The notes under the pieces are model-generated. The model worked only from the letters and a program-made list of their open reading frames with translations. It was not told the DNA's origin and did no database searches. Below, one piece after another: positions 5,893 through 24,843 of a DNA stretch of 36,380 nt (position 1 is its first letter; the number at the start of each line of letters is the position of its first letter). Origin of the DNA: Nitrospira sp. (GTDB lineage Bacteria > Nitrospirota > Nitrospiria > Nitrospirales > Nitrospiraceae); contig JANDJK010000017.1 of the NCBI GenBank assembly GCA_024330925.1, positions 1 through 36,380 of the forward strand. Direction: 5' to 3'. The position numbers and the translations under genes were made by a program.

Positions 5893-7328
5893 CTTACGAA
5901 GTTGTCATCGGTGTCGAAGTCCATGCACAATTACGGACGGCGTCCAAGATGTTCTGCGGCTGTTCGACGGCATTTGGTGCTCCGCCCAACAGCCAGACCT
6001 GTCCCGTGTGTCTTGGATTGCCCGGAAGCCTGCCCGTGATCAATCGGACGGCAGTTGAGATGGCAGTCCGTGCTGGCTTGGCGTTGAACTGCCGGATTAA
6101 CACGCTGAACCGATTTGCCCGCAAAAACTACTTTTATCCCGACTTGCCCAAAGGCTATCAAATCTCTCAATACGATGCTCCGATTTGTGAGCAGGGATGG
6201 GTGGTCATTACGGTGGGGGGCACCAAGAAGTCGATTCGTATTCGGCGGGCTCATCTGGAGGAGGATGCTGGCAAAACTGTCCATGAAGTGGGATCGTCCG
6301 GCAGCGTCGTGGATTTCAATCGAGCCGGTACTCCCCTGTTGGAGATTGTGACAGAACCAGATATGCGATCTGCTGACGAAGTGGTGGCATATCTGAAAAC
6401 CCTGCGAGACATTCTGATCTATCTCGAGGTGTGTGATGGCAATATGGAGCAAGGGAGTTTTCGATGCGAGCCCAATCTCTCGCTGCGTCCTCTGGGAACT
6501 GAAACGTTTGGAACGAAGGTCGAGCTCAAGAATATCAATTCCTTCAAGTACGTCAAGGATGCGATCGAATATGAGATCAAACGCCAGACAAAAGTGTTAA
6601 AGGAGGAAGGCACGGTCCGGCAGGAAACACGCTTGTGGAACCTTGAGCGGGGTGAAACGGTGGTGATGCGCTCGAAAGAGGAAGCTCACGACTACCGCTA
6701 TTTCCCTGATCCGGATCTGGTTCCGTTGCAGTTGGAAAAAGAGTGGACTGAGGGGATTCGGGCGACCCTTCCCGAGTTGCCGGCTGCTAAGGTCGCACGG
6801 TTTGTCCATGACTACGGACTGCCGGAATATGACGCTATGGTGCTGACTGCATCGAAAGGGTTGGCCGAATATTTTGAACGGTGTGTGACGTTGTTTGGCC
6901 AGCCGAAAACGGTTAGCAATTGGGTCATGGGTGAATTAAGTAGAGAGCTTAATGTAGCGGGCATCGATGCATCGTCCTCGCCGTTGTCGCCTGAGCGATT
7001 AGTGGAATTGCTGCGGTTGGTTGAGCAGGGAGCCATCAGTCTGAAAATGGCCCGTGAGATCTTTCCCGAGCTGTACAAGAGCGGCAAAACGGCTGACCAG
7101 ATCGTACGTGAGAGGGGGCTGACGCAAGTGTCTGACGAAGAAACGATTGGTACCTTGATCAACCAAGTGATGGCTGACTATCCTGCGCAGGTGGCGCAGT
7201 TTCGGCAAGGTAAACAGCAGGTATTGGGCTTTTTGATCGGTCAAGTGATGAAAGCCAGCGGAGGAAAAGCCAATCCCGGAAAGGTCAATGAGCTACTGAA
7301 ACGAAAATTGACTTCATCCACACAATAA
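5889..7328 (+). CDS. gatB: Aspartyl/glutamyl-tRNA amidotransferase subunit B
   Basis: GatB binds the misacylated tRNA, activates its side-chain carboxylate with ATP and amidates it. The 479-residue length is normal. The N-terminal cradle domain begins [13 protein letters not shown] and contains the zinc-type cysteines C23, C25, C38 and C41. [10 protein letters not shown] and [17 protein letters not shown] are core motifs. The C-terminal YqeY-like helical domain ends [12 protein letters not shown]. It begins with an ATGA overlap with the upstream small gene. After it comes a 171-bp gap before eno. Confidence 0.98.
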
Positions 7329-8786
<1,458 letters not shown>

Positions 8787-14939: not shown

Positions 14940-15488
14940 TTACGGAGAAGGCAAGGAAAGGTTGAGAGAGACAGCAACCCCGCGGTTGAGTTCCGCGAGA
15001 AAACGCTTTGCTTGACTGGCGTAATAGGGAGAAAGATCTTTCTGTGCTTTTTGATAGGCAAGAACGGATGCGAAGAGTTCACGGGCCTCCTCGGTTCGCC
15101 CTTCATACAGGGCTAACTGACCTGTATGGAGAGAACAGGCTGCAGCCATTGCTCGTACATCAACTGCTAGGCGGTTAGGCAGATCGCTCATCAATCGTCG
15201 AACCTTGGTGGGGAGAGGGAAGACAAACACCTCATTCTCTTTTCCCATAGGCGAAGAAAAAGCAGCAAAAGAAAGACGTTGCCATTCAGACTGAGCCGAA
15301 TGAAAGTTAGTGGCAACCTTGCACGCGTTGTAGCATTGCCAAAGAGATATGAATCGTTCATTGTGCAGATGTGTGTCATCCGAAAGAAAGGAAGGGGTTT
15401 GGCACCCTGATGCGAGGAGTGCCACCCCTAATATGCACGAGAGTACCCGTGGCCTCATTGTCATGCTCATCATGGTTGATCGCGTCAT
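14940..15488 (-). CDS. Predicted lipoprotein with a C-terminal TPR-like helical segment
   Basis: The family is not recognised. From the chosen start the protein has 182 residues: a basic N-terminus, a hydrophobic helix, and the lipobox LASGC with predicted lipidated Cys29. The C-terminal third (AAACSLHTGQLALYEGRTEEA and onward) has the spacing of TPR-like helix pairs. I chose the ATG at 15488-15486 because GAGGA lies about 6 bases upstream on that strand; an upstream in-frame ATG at 15527 and several internal ones (to 15458) are alternatives. It lies downstream of the LuxR-type gene on the same strand, separated by 351 bp, so it may have its own promoter. Confidence 0.65.
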   Translation of the reverse strand: MTRSTMMSMTMRPRVLSCILGVALLASGCQTPSFLSDDTHLHNERFISLWQCYNACKVATNFHSAQSEWQRLSFAAFSSPMGKENEVFVFPLPTKVRRLMSDLPNRLAVDVRAMAAACSLHTGQLALYEGRTEEARELFASVLAYQKAQKDLSPYYASQAKRFLAELNRGVAVSLNLSLPSP

Positions 15489-15839
15489 TGCTGTCCTCGC
15501 GGCACGTGCGGCTCTCATGAGCACCACTGACTAAAACCGGAGCTTAATCAAAGCCATTCTCTATTCAATCTCTCACGTTTTTTCATCACCTTTTACCGTT
15601 GTCCCGTCCTCAATTACAAGTTCTTTTTAGAAGCGCGGGTATTCATCGATACTGGAGCTAGAGTGGCACCTGCAAATATCGTGCAACGAGAAATCCGAAG
15701 CAAAATTAATCATAAATATTTAACTTATAATGATATTTTTACAATCGTGCAAAGATAGTGTAATACTGGCTGTGTAAATTACTACTCACTGTGAGGGTTT
15801 TACAACGGTTAAGAGAAGAGGGATAGGTGGAGGCACGAC
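15489..15839. other. AT-rich intergenic region with direct and inverted repeats
   Basis: No gene was seen in these 351 bp. The middle (about 15700-15745) is markedly AT-rich. The 9-mer ATCGTGCAA occurs twice, at 15678-15686 and 15744-15752, flanking the AT-rich core; including neighbours, 11 of 12 positions match (ATCGTGCAAMGA). Inside are ATCATAA (15709-15715) and TTATAATGAT (15725-15734), an imperfect dyad. CTCAC-T-GTGAG at 15785-15795 is a perfect short palindrome. This looks like a regulated promoter region for the downstream (- strand) lipoprotein gene, but no clear -35/-10 pair for that strand was found. Confidence 0.45.
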
Positions 15840-16448
15840 TTACGAGTTGAAGACTTGAGCAAGAATACCCGTACGAGTCGTGGCGTTCGTCTTTCGCATG
15901 ATGTGCTTAATGTGCTCTTTTACCGTCTGTTCGGTAATCTGAAGCGCATTGGCGATTTCCTTGTTTGTCCAGCCTTTTGCAAGGTGCTCGATGACTTCTT
16001 GCTCCCGTAGGGTCAGTTGAAAGCGATCGCGGGCATGTTCCGCATTCAAAGGTTTTTTTCGGCCCAACTCCTCCATGGTAATGACCAGTCGGGCATTGTG
16101 GATACCACCTCGATCTGGAAGGCCAAAGCCCCGAAGCAAAATTGGCTGATTGGGGTCTCCGACAATCCGTTTGATCTCGAATTGTTCCCAATCCTTAGCC
16201 TCAGTGCGAACGTGAAGAGCTTTGATGATTTCGTGGCAGAGTTCGGTAAGAGCGGTGGGGAGTACGCCATGAGCATATTTCGTGGAGTGGCCTGCTTGTT
16301 CGACGTCATTGAGTTTTTTGGCAAGCTCTAATGCTTGGTGATTCATGTGCAGGAGTTGCAAGGAGGCCGACATAACGACAATCCCTGATCCCGCTCGTTG
16401 GTCGGCTAGGCTATCGGTTTGGTCTAAAACACCAGGGCTACTGGTCAT
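15840..16448 (-). CDS. LuxR-family transcriptional regulator with PAS-like N-terminal domain
   Basis: The 202-residue protein has a C-terminal LuxR/GerE helix-turn-helix (about residues 143-202): LTLREQEVIEHLAKGWTNKE, then ITEQTVKEHIKHIMRKTNA, which is the canonical pattern of the family. The N-terminal ~130 residues begin GIVVMSASLQLLHMNHQALEL, reminiscent of a PAS fold; no receiver phosphoacceptor Asp pattern is seen. The start at 16448 is supported by AAAGGTG about 8 bases upstream on that strand. It is divergent from the PilZ gene and EPS genes, and the shared upstream DNA holds three copies of a palindromic motif, so it is the natural candidate regulator of the EPS locus and of itself. 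The target assignment is inference. Confidence 0.9.
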   Translation of the reverse strand: MTSSPGVLDQTDSLADQRAGSGIVVMSASLQLLHMNHQALELAKKLNDVEQAGHSTKYAHGVLPTALTELCHEIIKALHVRTEAKDWEQFEIKRIVGDPNQPILLRGFGLPDRGGIHNARLVITMEELGRKKPLNAEHARDRFQLTLREQEVIEHLAKGWTNKEIANALQITEQTVKEHIKHIMRKTNATTRTGILAQVFNS

Positions 16449-16482: not shown

Positions 16483-16500
16483 GTGCTAAAAGCTTAGCAC
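16483..16500. promoter_or_regulatory. Perfect 7-bp-arm palindrome upstream of LuxR-type gene
   Basis: GTGCTAA-AAGC-TTAGCAC is an 18-bp dyad with seven perfectly complementary outer pairs, 35 bp upstream of the - strand regulator's start. Its core GCTAAAAGCTTAGC shares CTAA-N-A-N-N-TT-N-G with two further sites in this gap. The position fits autoregulation by the adjacent LuxR-type protein; this is inferred. Confidence 0.5.
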
Positions 16501-16584
16501 AGGTTATGGACTCTGGGGTCATAAAGAAGAAGTTTTGAGCAGAACACAGAGAAGGGGTAAGCCCAAACGTCCATGGCGATAGTA

Positions 16585-16598
16585 CCTAATACTTTTGG
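16585..16598. promoter_or_regulatory. Operator-like motif copy 2 (CCTAATACTTTTGG)
   Basis: This 14-bp site differs from the copy at 16705-16718 at one position. It lies exactly 100 bp from the first site's core (16485). It is quasi-palindromic (CC..AA / TT..GG) and is followed directly by a G run. Confidence 0.45.
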
Positions 16599-16704
16599 GG
16601 GGGGTCAACATATACTTTCAGAAGAAGCGAGCCTACATCATTGGTATTGCCATCAGGGGTCTTCCCATATATTGTTAGTACCGTCTTTGGAGAACAGGAC
16701 GAAC

Positions 16705-16718
16705 CCTAATAATTTTGG
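16705..16718. promoter_or_regulatory. Operator-like motif copy 3 (CCTAATAATTTTGG)
   Basis: This copy matches copy 2 at 13 of 14 positions and is spaced exactly 120 bp from it. It is quasi-palindromic. It lies about 160 bp upstream of the PilZ start, suitable for control of the + strand genes. Confidence 0.45.
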
Positions 16719-16865
16719 TTCATCAGGCTCACAACCAACCCCATTGCTTGTGAGAAGGACCGAATTGGGCAAGACAACACAAGACGGCGGTGTTAGTCCA
16801 TCGTCAGTTCATGCTAGACCTAGCGGTGAGGGAGCGCTGTGATTCAGAAACAGTGGGAGTGGCCA

Positions 16866-17183
16866 ATGAAAGACGGTCATGAAAATCACAACGAACGGGT
16901 GGCCTTGTTGAGACCGATTCCGTATGAGATGACTCCTCTCAAGAGTGATGATAGTGAGAGAGGAAGAGGGAAAGCGTTGTCCCTTAACATTAGTAACGGC
17001 GGTATGTTGTTACTTATGGGGCGAGCTCCGAAGATTGAGCAGGTGTTGAAGGTGTACGTTCCCACTCCAATCACCAGGGCTGGTACTCCTACATTGGCTG
17101 AGGTGCGATGGACACGAAAAGTACCCTTTGGCAAGGCCAATGGGGGGGGACCATATTTGGTGGGGGTGAAGTTTATCTTCTAA
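16866..17183 (+). CDS. PilZ-domain protein (putative c-di-GMP effector)
   Basis: This small protein of 105 residues is a single PilZ-like domain. The PilZ hallmark appears as an Arg motif (NERVALLRP, R-x4-R) near residues 9-16, followed by SLNISNGGMLLLM, which fits the [D/N]xSxxG motif, and a C-terminal VRWTRKV...GPYLVGVKFIF strand pattern typical of the family. The Arg spacing is one longer than the usual RxxxR, so c-di-GMP binding is likely but not certain. I prefer ATG 16866 (GGGAG at 6-bp spacing); GTG 16839, also with a good GGAG, would add nine residues. It is the first + strand gene of the EPS block and may link production to c-di-GMP. Confidence 0.82.
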   Translation: MKDGHENHNERVALLRPIPYEMTPLKSDDSERGRGKALSLNISNGGMLLLMGRAPKIEQVLKVYVPTPITRAGTPTLAEVRWTRKVPFGKANGGGPYLVGVKFIF

Positions 17184-17231: not shown

Positions 17232-17966
17232 ATGGCATTCTTAAGCATCCGAACCATGGCATCAATCTTTGATAACTGTTACGGAGCGCGAAGGGCTTCT
17301 CGCGTTTCTAGCTTTATGGCGTTTGGGATAGTGATGCTTGTGGGACTGTTGGGAGGACCTCTCCAGGCATGTGCTGAGAAACTAAGTGAGCCGCTGCCTC
17401 GACCACAGTCAGCAGGTGGGGGGGGAGTAGACAAATCATCACTCGTAGTCACACCGGACTACATTATAGGACCAGAAGATGTGTTGGACGTTAGTGTTTG
17501 GAAAAATACCGATTTGTCACGGACGGTTCTGGTTCGGCCTGATGGGAAAATTTCTCTTCCGCTGATCGGTGATGTGGTAGCTGTTGGAATGACCGCTACT
17601 CACTTAGCAGACGTCATTTCAGAACGATTAAAGGAATATAAGGAGAATCCGCAAGTATCCATCGTAGTCAAGGAGATTAACAGTTACGCGATCTACGTGC
17701 TCGGTGAAGTGGCCCATCCGGGGAAGTATCCGCTCAAAAGCAAAACGACCCTCTTGCAGGCCATCACGCTGGCCGGCGGATTTACGCCGACGGCGGCACG
17801 GAATAAGATCGTGGTATTTCGGTTTGGGGAGAACGGGCAAAAGGATGTCAAGATCAAGGTGAATTATGACGACATTGTTCTGCGAGATGGCTCAAGTCAA
17901 AACCTAGTGCTTGCTCCCGGCGACACCATTGTGATTCCCTCAGAAACCATGGTGTTGGTACCCTAA
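17232..17966 (+). CDS. Wza-like polysaccharide export lipoprotein (copy 1)
   Basis: This is an outer-membrane polysaccharide export protein of 244 residues. The N-terminus has a hydrophobic stretch ending GGPLQACAEK; Cys47 may be lipidated, although the lipobox LQAC is not ideal. A Poly_export domain begins IIGPEDVLDVSVWKNTDLSR, with RPDGKISLPLIGDV, followed by one SLBB domain (YAIYVLGEVAHPGKYPL...LAGGFTPTA). Such short Wza relatives are typical of exosortase-associated EPS loci. The ribosome site at ATG 17232 is weak; ATG 17256 and ATG 17316 are possible. It is strongly similar to the next gene, indicating tandem duplication. Confidence 0.92.
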   Translation: MAFLSIRTMASIFDNCYGARRASRVSSFMAFGIVMLVGLLGGPLQACAEKLSEPLPRPQSAGGGGVDKSSLVVTPDYIIGPEDVLDVSVWKNTDLSRTVLVRPDGKISLPLIGDVVAVGMTATHLADVISERLKEYKENPQVSIVVKEINSYAIYVLGEVAHPGKYPLKSKTTLLQAITLAGGFTPTAARNKIVVFRFGENGQKDVKIKVNYDDIVLRDGSSQNLVLAPGDTIVIPSETMVLVP

Positions 17967-23408: not shown

Positions 23409-24344
23409 ATGAAAAGAAGTGGAGTCCACGCGTTGTCATTCGATGTTGAGGAGCATTTCCAGGTCTCCGCGTTTTGGTCTGAAGAGCGCCGAAGCCAGTG
23501 GGAAACTTATGAAAGTCGAGTGGAGCGCAATACGGAGAAGATCCTAGATCTGCTCTCGCGACGAGGGGTTTATGCAACCTTTTTTGTGCTCGGCTGGGTC
23601 GCAAAGCGACATCAGCGATTGGTGAGGACCATCGTTGATCAAGGGCACGAATTGGCTTCTCATGGGTACGGCCATGAGCTCATCACGAACCAACGGCCCG
23701 ATCAATTCCGTGACGATGTGCGGAAGAGTAAACAGCTACTCGAGGATATTGCTGGCGTTCCGGTTTATGGCTACCGAGCTCCATCTTTTACGATTGTTGC
23801 TCGGACTCGGTGGGCGCTTCCGATCCTTGTCGAGGAAGGCTATCGCTATGACTCGAGCATCTTTCCCATCCGTCATGATCGGTATGGCATGCCGGAGGCT
23901 GTGCCGTACTGCCATTGCATAGACACAGAAAGTGGTCCGTTATGGGAGGTCCCTCCTTCTACCTTGAAAGTGGGAGCGATTCGCATTCCAATTGCGGGGG
24001 GAGGGTACTTTCGGCTGTTTCCCTATCCGATCTTGCGCAGGCTTCTCGATGGTGCCGCCGTTCATGGTCATCCGTTGATCATGTATCTTCACCCCTGGGA
24101 ACTGGATCCTGAGCAGCCCAGGATGGCTGGTTCGTGGCTGTCGACTTTTCGTCATTATTTAAATCTGGATAAGACGGAGGCGCGGCTGAAACGGCTCCTG
24201 TCCGATTTCCCGTTTACGACGATTCGCAACACGCTAGACACGATAGAGCAAGCTGGTCTGAAGAGGGCCGGTCTTGCCAACCGATCACGCGTTAATGTTC
24301 AGGATCACGCAAGCCGATATATGATGGGGAATGGCCATGGCTGA
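23409..24344 (+). CDS. Polysaccharide deacetylase, exosortase-A-locus type (NodB fold with DUF3473-like tail)
   Basis: This 311-residue protein likely removes N-acetyl groups from the EPS. The NodB domain begins HALSFDVEEHFQVSAF, where Asp12 takes the catalytic/metal position; the metal-binding His pair is in ELASHGYGHEL, followed by YRAPSFTI. YRYDSSIFPIRHDRYGMP and YLHPWELDPEQPR are characteristic of the exosortase-linked subgroup. There is no signal peptide, as is usual for this subgroup. I chose ATG 23409 (AAGGAG at 23396-23401, 7-bp spacing) over an in-frame GTG at 23388. The end overlaps the NusG-like gene by 8 bp. Confidence 0.93.
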   Translation: MKRSGVHALSFDVEEHFQVSAFWSEERRSQWETYESRVERNTEKILDLLSRRGVYATFFVLGWVAKRHQRLVRTIVDQGHELASHGYGHELITNQRPDQFRDDVRKSKQLLEDIAGVPVYGYRAPSFTIVARTRWALPILVEEGYRYDSSIFPIRHDRYGMPEAVPYCHCIDTESGPLWEVPPSTLKVGAIRIPIAGGGYFRLFPYPILRRLLDGAAVHGHPLIMYLHPWELDPEQPRMAGSWLSTFRHYLNLDKTEARLKRLLSDFPFTTIRNTLDTIEQAGLKRAGLANRSRVNVQDHASRYMMGNGHG

Positions 24345-24843
24345 GCAGGAAAGGGCGGAGTGGTATGTGGTTCGTACAAAACCGCACCAGGAAACCATAG
24401 CCGAAGCAAGCTTGCTACGAGGTGGAATTGAGGCGATCTGTCCTCGTATTCAAGAACGGCGTGTGATCAGAAAACGATTGCAACAGGTCATCGGACCGTT
24501 GTTTCCCGGCTATCTGTTTGCAAAGTCTACGCTTGCAGGATTGCGGCTGATCAAGTATGCCAGGGGGGTTCGCCATCTCGTCTCGTTTGGAGCCGGGCCT
24601 GTTGTTGTAAGTCAGGAAGTTATGGACGAAATTTTCCGGAGAATGGAAGGGGGAGTCGTTACTCCCCTACGACCGTCATTTGCTCGCGGAGACTTGGTTC
24701 GGGTTACCGAGGGACCGCTGCAAGGTCTGGAAGCAGTATTTGAGCGGGAACTTCCTGGTCAACAGCGAGCCCTGCTACTGATGAAAATGCTGGCCGGTCA
24801 AGTGCGGGTGGAGTTGGATTTGAGAGCCATCGTCTGTGCCTGA
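24337..24843 (+). CDS. NusG/RfaH-like transcription elongation factor (NusG paralogue)
   Basis: This 168-residue protein has an NGN domain (about 8-105; EWYVVRTKPHQETIAEASLL, GPLFPGYLFAK, GVRHLVSFG) and a C-terminal KOW domain (about 112-155; ARGDLVRVTEGPLQGLEAVFE). Such paralogues bind RNA polymerase and allow processive transcription of long EPS, LPS or antibiotic operons. ATG 24337 is preferred (GGGGA at 6-bp spacing); ATG 24331 adds two residues. It is encoded inside the operon it may control, overlapping the deacetylase gene, and is followed directly by a 258-bp non-coding stretch with strong hairpins, a possible RNA/DNA recruitment site. It is not the housekeeping nusG, as no secE/rplK neighbours are present. 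Confidence 0.92.
   Translation: MAEQERAEWYVVRTKPHQETIAEASLLRGGIEAICPRIQERRVIRKRLQQVIGPLFPGYLFAKSTLAGLRLIKYARGVRHLVSFGAGPVVVSQEVMDEIFRRMEGGVVTPLRPSFARGDLVRVTEGPLQGLEAVFERELPGQQRALLLMKMLAGQVRVELDLRAIVCA

Follow-up and report, generated by a model that had tools for sequence, protein, structure and literature searches.

A conserved pair of predicted divergent promoters with a shared candidate operator between a LuxR-type regulator gene and the EPS locus of Nitrospira

In the DNA of Nitrospira sp. analysed here (36,380 nucleotides, hereafter the window), the gap between a luxR-type regulator gene and the gene of a PilZ-domain protein contains a block of about 75 bp which is conserved in all the 76 luxR loci compared, along with a -10 element some 20 bp beyond it, while the remaining gap is unalignable. 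We read this region as a divergent pair of sigma-70-type promoters, the left one directed towards luxR and the right one towards pilZ and the EPS export genes, with one conserved box (box B) between them that would activate the EPS genes and act on luxR. To this reading, which is drawn from the sequence, we assign a probability of roughly 0.7; the conservation, promoter geometry, synteny and gene content that enter into it are observed. Divergent promoters that have one candidate operator in common and stand before an EPS locus are of a familiar kind; our searches gave no description of such an arrangement for Nitrospira. Members of this genus are major nitrite oxidisers and comammox bacteria, and grow as flocs and biofilms; no description of the control of their EPS locus, or of an EPS regulator, was found in our searches of the open-access literature. 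A promoter pair mapped across the genus, with one candidate operator, makes the Nitrospira EPS switch tractable by reporter and gel-shift experiments.

The features of the locus are collected in Table 1. The window locus was compared with 75 other luxR loci, from records that are mostly labelled Nitrospira and include N. moscoviensis and N. defluvii; the nearest relative (L157) has a LuxR protein 95% identical to that of the window. The luxR orthologues of the same genus share a gene order in which glgA, a lipoprotein-like gene and luxR are followed, usually, by pilZ and then by the EPS genes. In 28 of 35 same-genus genomes a sequence-only profile of the block found a single strong copy, in each case beside luxR, a co-occurrence that is partly trivial because the block is itself the predicted luxR promoter. 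The window copy scored 59.9 bits, as compared to 67-88 bits in the relatives. The window also contains an RfaH/NusG-like antiterminator gene (24331-24843), which in many relatives lies inside the EPS cluster or close to its start and in L039, L041, L043, L044 and L045 comes after pilZ; the pilZ leader showed no conserved ops-like element.

Table 1. Features of the luxR-pilZ region, with positions in the window.
Feature	Position	Strand	Remarks
luxR-type regulator gene	15840..16448	-	202 aa; predicted PAS-like N-terminal domain and GerE/LuxR HTH; orthologues syntenic within the genus
Copy 1, GCTAAAAGCTTAGC	16485-16498		Within a dyad with 7-bp arms (16483..16500); species-specific; predicted luxR leader; probably chance
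Conserved block, whole	16574..16655		From gap alignment and profile; most diverged copy found in the genus
Predicted -10 element of luxR promoter, TACTAT	16579..16584	-	From promoter scan and spacing scan
Copy 2, CCTAATACTTTTGG	16585..16598		Spacer of predicted luxR promoter; conserved as CCTAAC[CA]CTTT; possible overlapping operator
Predicted -35 element of luxR promoter, TTGACC	16603..16608	-	TTGACT in 71/75 loci
Box B, 13-bp core, CCTACATCATTGG	16632..16644		Candidate operator common to both promoters
Predicted -35 element of pilZ/EPS promoter, TTGCCA	16647..16652	+	TTGTTG commonest in relatives
Predicted -10 element of pilZ/EPS promoter, TATTGT	16670..16675	+	TATANT in relatives
Copy 3, CCTAATAATTTTGG	16705..16718		Species-specific; predicted pilZ leader; probably chance
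PilZ-domain protein gene	16839..17183	+	Pfam PilZ 1.3e-4; orthologues adjoin luxR in most relatives
Polysaccharide export gene (Poly_export/SLBB)	17232..17966	+	First gene of an XrtA/PEP-CTERM-type EPS cluster

That the block represents two back-to-back promoters of the sigma-70 type is well supported. Outward-facing -35/-10 pairs at 16-18 bp spacing are present, with spacers of 18 (left) and 17 bp (right) in the window, where both promoters were also selected by a generic promoter scan. With respect to a background rate of 1.7% per position, the TAnnnT hexamer is found 17 bp from TTGAC[T] on the left side in 92% of the loci, at 18 bp in 5% and almost nowhere else; on the right side, 88% of the 76 loci have it exactly 17 bp away from TTGTTG, with 0-8% at each of the other spacings from 10 to 26. 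The luxR promoter of the window is TTGACC-18-TACTAT (16608-16579, minus strand), its 18-bp spacer being due to an extra G. The G run at 16599-16606, where nearly all relatives have a spacer of 17, may be real or an assembly error. The right promoter starts with the TTG that ends the block and reads, in the window, TTGCCA-17-TATTGT (16647-16675, plus strand). Its -35 sequence is weak and far from TTGACA, as suits an activator-dependent promoter. The left promoter would drive the PAS-LuxR regulator gene, and the right one pilZ and then the EPS export genes, with predicted starts some 7 bp beyond the -10 elements, near 16572 (minus strand) and 16682 (plus strand).

The gene content of the loci fits this reading of the right promoter. 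In L213, which has no pilZ, the polysaccharide export gene comes directly after the right promoter. pilZ is also gone from the clade of L195 (G011) and L197 (G006), where the export gene has moved about 7 kb away; in these two loci, as well as in L182, which also has no pilZ, the right -10 element is lost and box B carries 3-4 mismatches (mean 0.6 elsewhere), with an intact left promoter. These three losses are probably one evolutionary event. Over the whole set the association between the right -10 and the presence of pilZ is modest (Fisher p = 0.01, with loci treated as unrelated), since most of the loci without pilZ retain the -10 before another gene. L126, L153 and L154 have no right -10 at 17 bp, and L226 has a poor box B and an intact right -10.

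Box B in full reads CNTACRTNATNGGTATTG (window 16632-16649). In each of the 76 luxR loci it lies within 4 substitutions of the consensus, and it is also present in a second family of the same order. The 13-bp core stops two bases short of the right -35 and, in nearly all loci, lies 21-23 bp upstream of the left -35. By standard promoter geometry, a protein bound to box B would abut the weak right -35 in the position of a class II activator of pilZ and the EPS genes; with respect to the left promoter, the box would be centred near -63, from where it could act on luxR as well. Within the genus, box B does not form a clean palindrome: a strict CCTA-N5-TNGG dyad, considered as its consensus, holds in most loci and fails in the N. 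defluvii-like ones, which read CGTAC..., and for this reason the dyad is not claimed. A genome-wide box B regulon in the genus of the window was rejected too, as the matches away from luxR (up to 2 mismatches) are mostly two-mismatch ones and about as frequent as those of a reversed-pattern control. In a third family, a one-mismatch box B preceded by GGGAGTCAA was observed between convergent gene ends, with no obvious target (L129, G058:C33, 6413-6430).

Diverged blocks upstream of luxR paralogues and EPS genes were found in genomes of the second family, and in six loci TAnnnT again lies exactly 17 bp from the right -35. A profile built from these blocks gave four copies in each of three genomes; one of the second-family copies is beside a GGDEF gene, and weaker ones are beside an RsbR-like gene (named by eye from its sequence) and others. 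In L126 (G037:C262), the block at 6229-6285 lies upstream of a GGDEF-domain gene (6419-7279) with a PilZ-domain gene nearby and no luxR within the 12 kb examined. A luxR paralogue in L050 is preceded by a tandem duplication of the left-promoter half of the block (7245-7361), the two copies being 48 bp apart. Some second-family blocks carry GGGG-AGTCAA-CCCC over the left -35, a sequence that contains the VqmA-type GG-N6-CC and that the window block does not have; the GGGG-N6-CCCC palindrome was discarded as operator, being confined to the second family and absent from the window. A broader proposal, which we put forward tentatively and with some doubt, is that a genus-wide PAS-LuxR protein senses through its PAS domain, that from one shared box it activates the EPS/PilZ operon and tunes its own gene, and that in the sister family this same box has come to stand at signalling genes, those of c-di-GMP among them. 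If this were true, an aggregation regulon of nitrifiers and related bacteria would be built around the shared box.

Box B is most likely the shared operator of the PAS-LuxR protein, by which both the EPS genes and its own gene would be switched. We infer that box B is a protein-binding site and that this protein binds it, activating EPS and feeding back on its own gene, from the adjacency of the gene, from a copy number of the box that tracks the number of paralogues, and from the habits of the class. The preliminary description of the window had also pointed to the adjacent LuxR-type protein as the binder; it is indeed the natural candidate, but the candidate operator, at 16632-16649, was not among the sites then noted. 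A serious possibility, if one short of even odds, is that the promoters are real and box B is bound by another regulator, such as a factor that responds to c-di-GMP or nutrients and is encoded at another locus. This would fit with the degradation of box B along with the right promoter in loci that keep luxR, with the absence of the published PAS-LuxR consensus from the gap, and with the presence of the box at only one of about eight luxR paralogues in the genome G026. On the other hand, the copy number of the box follows this luxR family (one in the genus of the window, several where there are several paralogues), and regulation of adjacent genes by the regulator itself is common among LuxR-type one-component proteins.

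PrsK/PrsR are linked to sigma-54 control of other PEP-CTERM systems, and the EPS locus could likewise be under a sigma-54 promoter through PrsK/PrsR, with the block regulating luxR only. This is improbable: with up to two mismatches allowed, no -24/-12 element (TGGCAC-N5-TTGCW) was found in the gap or immediately before pilZ or the export gene, and the right-hand sigma-70 promoter is conserved, even if an RpoN-dependent PEP-CTERM gene appears to be described in another system (PMC9850573). A one-mismatch and a two-mismatch sigma-54-like site, both weak, are present on the minus strand at window 15671-15686 and 15748-15763, upstream of the lipoprotein-like gene (14940-15527); in the window such sites occur at or below the frequency expected by chance.

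The same gap had previously been described as carrying three copies of an operator-like 14-bp motif, with offsets of 100 and 120 bp suggestive of looping or cooperative LuxR binding. The three 14-mers are indeed present at 16485, 16585 and 16705, and the dyad around copy 1 (GTGCTAA-AAGC-TTAGCAC) has perfect 7-bp arms; dyads of this kind are commonplace, with 17 in the window (0.47 per kb). The pattern CTAANANNTTNG has 3 matches in the window, all within 236 bp and all corresponding to the copies, as compared to 0.53 expected, and no shuffle reached 3. Moreover, copies 2 and 3 match at 13 of 14 positions, share CCTA-N6-TTGG, and form a repeat pair within 150 bp of a kind seen in 0.5% of the dinucleotide shuffles of the luxR-pilZ gap. 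A search of the 2.44-Mb genome gave 22 strand-hits. The clustering is thus unusual on paper, but the pattern had been composed after viewing the three copies; its rarity was therefore not taken at face value and conservation was examined. A second pair of CTAANANNTTNG matches, 36 bp apart, occurs in the genome of the window (G000:C149:18053-18100), which shows that so loose a pattern also clusters at other places.

The alignment of the luxR-pilZ gaps placed copy 2 inside the block and the other two outside it. None of the 75 other loci has copy 1 or copy 3. Even in the nearest relative (L157), copy 1 is replaced by GTGAAAGCTTAGC, with loss of CTAA and of the dyad, and copy 3 by GCCAACAATTCTTC, which differs at several of the 14 positions. 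Outside the conserved block, the looser CCTA-N5/6-TNGG occurs once, as copy 3, in a set of 28 orthologous gaps that total about 9.4 kb, with about 1.1 expected by a simple count. Since they are unconserved and the looser pattern is at chance frequency, copies 1 and 3 are best read as coincidence, probably so on what the sequences tell. Copy 2 is kept in the relatives within a longer element (CCTAACCCTTT..), in which the A at position 7, a key base of the proposed motif, is often C. With copies 1 and 3 lying downstream of the predicted transcription starts, inside the predicted transcripts, and copy 2 coinciding with a -10/-35 spacer, a looping or cooperative array at 100 and 120 bp is very improbable. 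What holds of the proposed EPS switch is a conserved control region adjoining the EPS locus; its three-operator basis does not. Least probable of all is an RNA structure or riboswitch within a leader, as a long conserved non-coding stretch beside a PilZ gene with partly complementary ends might suggest, given that the block has no Rfam match, no pair with changes on both sides (covariation term +0.1) and indels in its middle, and that the predicted starts point outward, so that neither transcript would contain it.

As for the PAS-LuxR protein encoded beside the divergent promoters, it carries a GerE HTH at its C terminus (Pfam GerE, 1.1e-15). The N-terminal domain is predicted to be PAS-like: it has no Pfam PAS match, and a Foldseek search with its structure model matched both PAS-LuxR proteins and PAS domains on their own (E about 1e-6 to 1e-3). 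The model has a pLDDT of 79, with low confidence in the domain orientation (pTM 0.56). Its best Foldseek matches are VqmA and EL222 (6kju, 6ugl, 6ide, 3p7n), at 14-18% sequence identity, in which a PAS-like domain is followed by a LuxR/GerE HTH, as is predicted for the window protein. VqmA recognises a short GG-N6-CC palindrome at its target promoter (PMC8284805); this sequence is not found over the -35 in the window block, whereas several second-family blocks have it. The PAS-LuxR regulators of the PimM type, from actinobacteria, share the domain order predicted for the window protein and likewise have a cis element on or close to the -35; their operator, CTVGGGAWWTCCCBAG in the -35 region (PMC9774167), has no match in the gap with up to 3 mismatches allowed. 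EpsA (XrtB/PEP-CTERM-associated, TIGR03020) is the best NCBIfam match and likewise places a LuxR HTH beside a PEP-CTERM-type EPS locus; an assignment of the window protein to it was rejected, the score being 51.4 bits against a cut-off of 170, from the HTH part only. Finally, VpsT of Vibrio cholerae is a LuxR-type regulator described as under c-di-GMP control and connected with biofilm polysaccharide and with diguanylate cyclase genes (PMC8754643). The window protein resembles it as a LuxR-type regulator tied to polysaccharide, and a GGDEF gene adjoins one of the second-family blocks; in contrast to VpsT, the window protein has an N-terminal domain predicted to be PAS-like, and c-di-GMP could reach the system by way of the separate PilZ protein.
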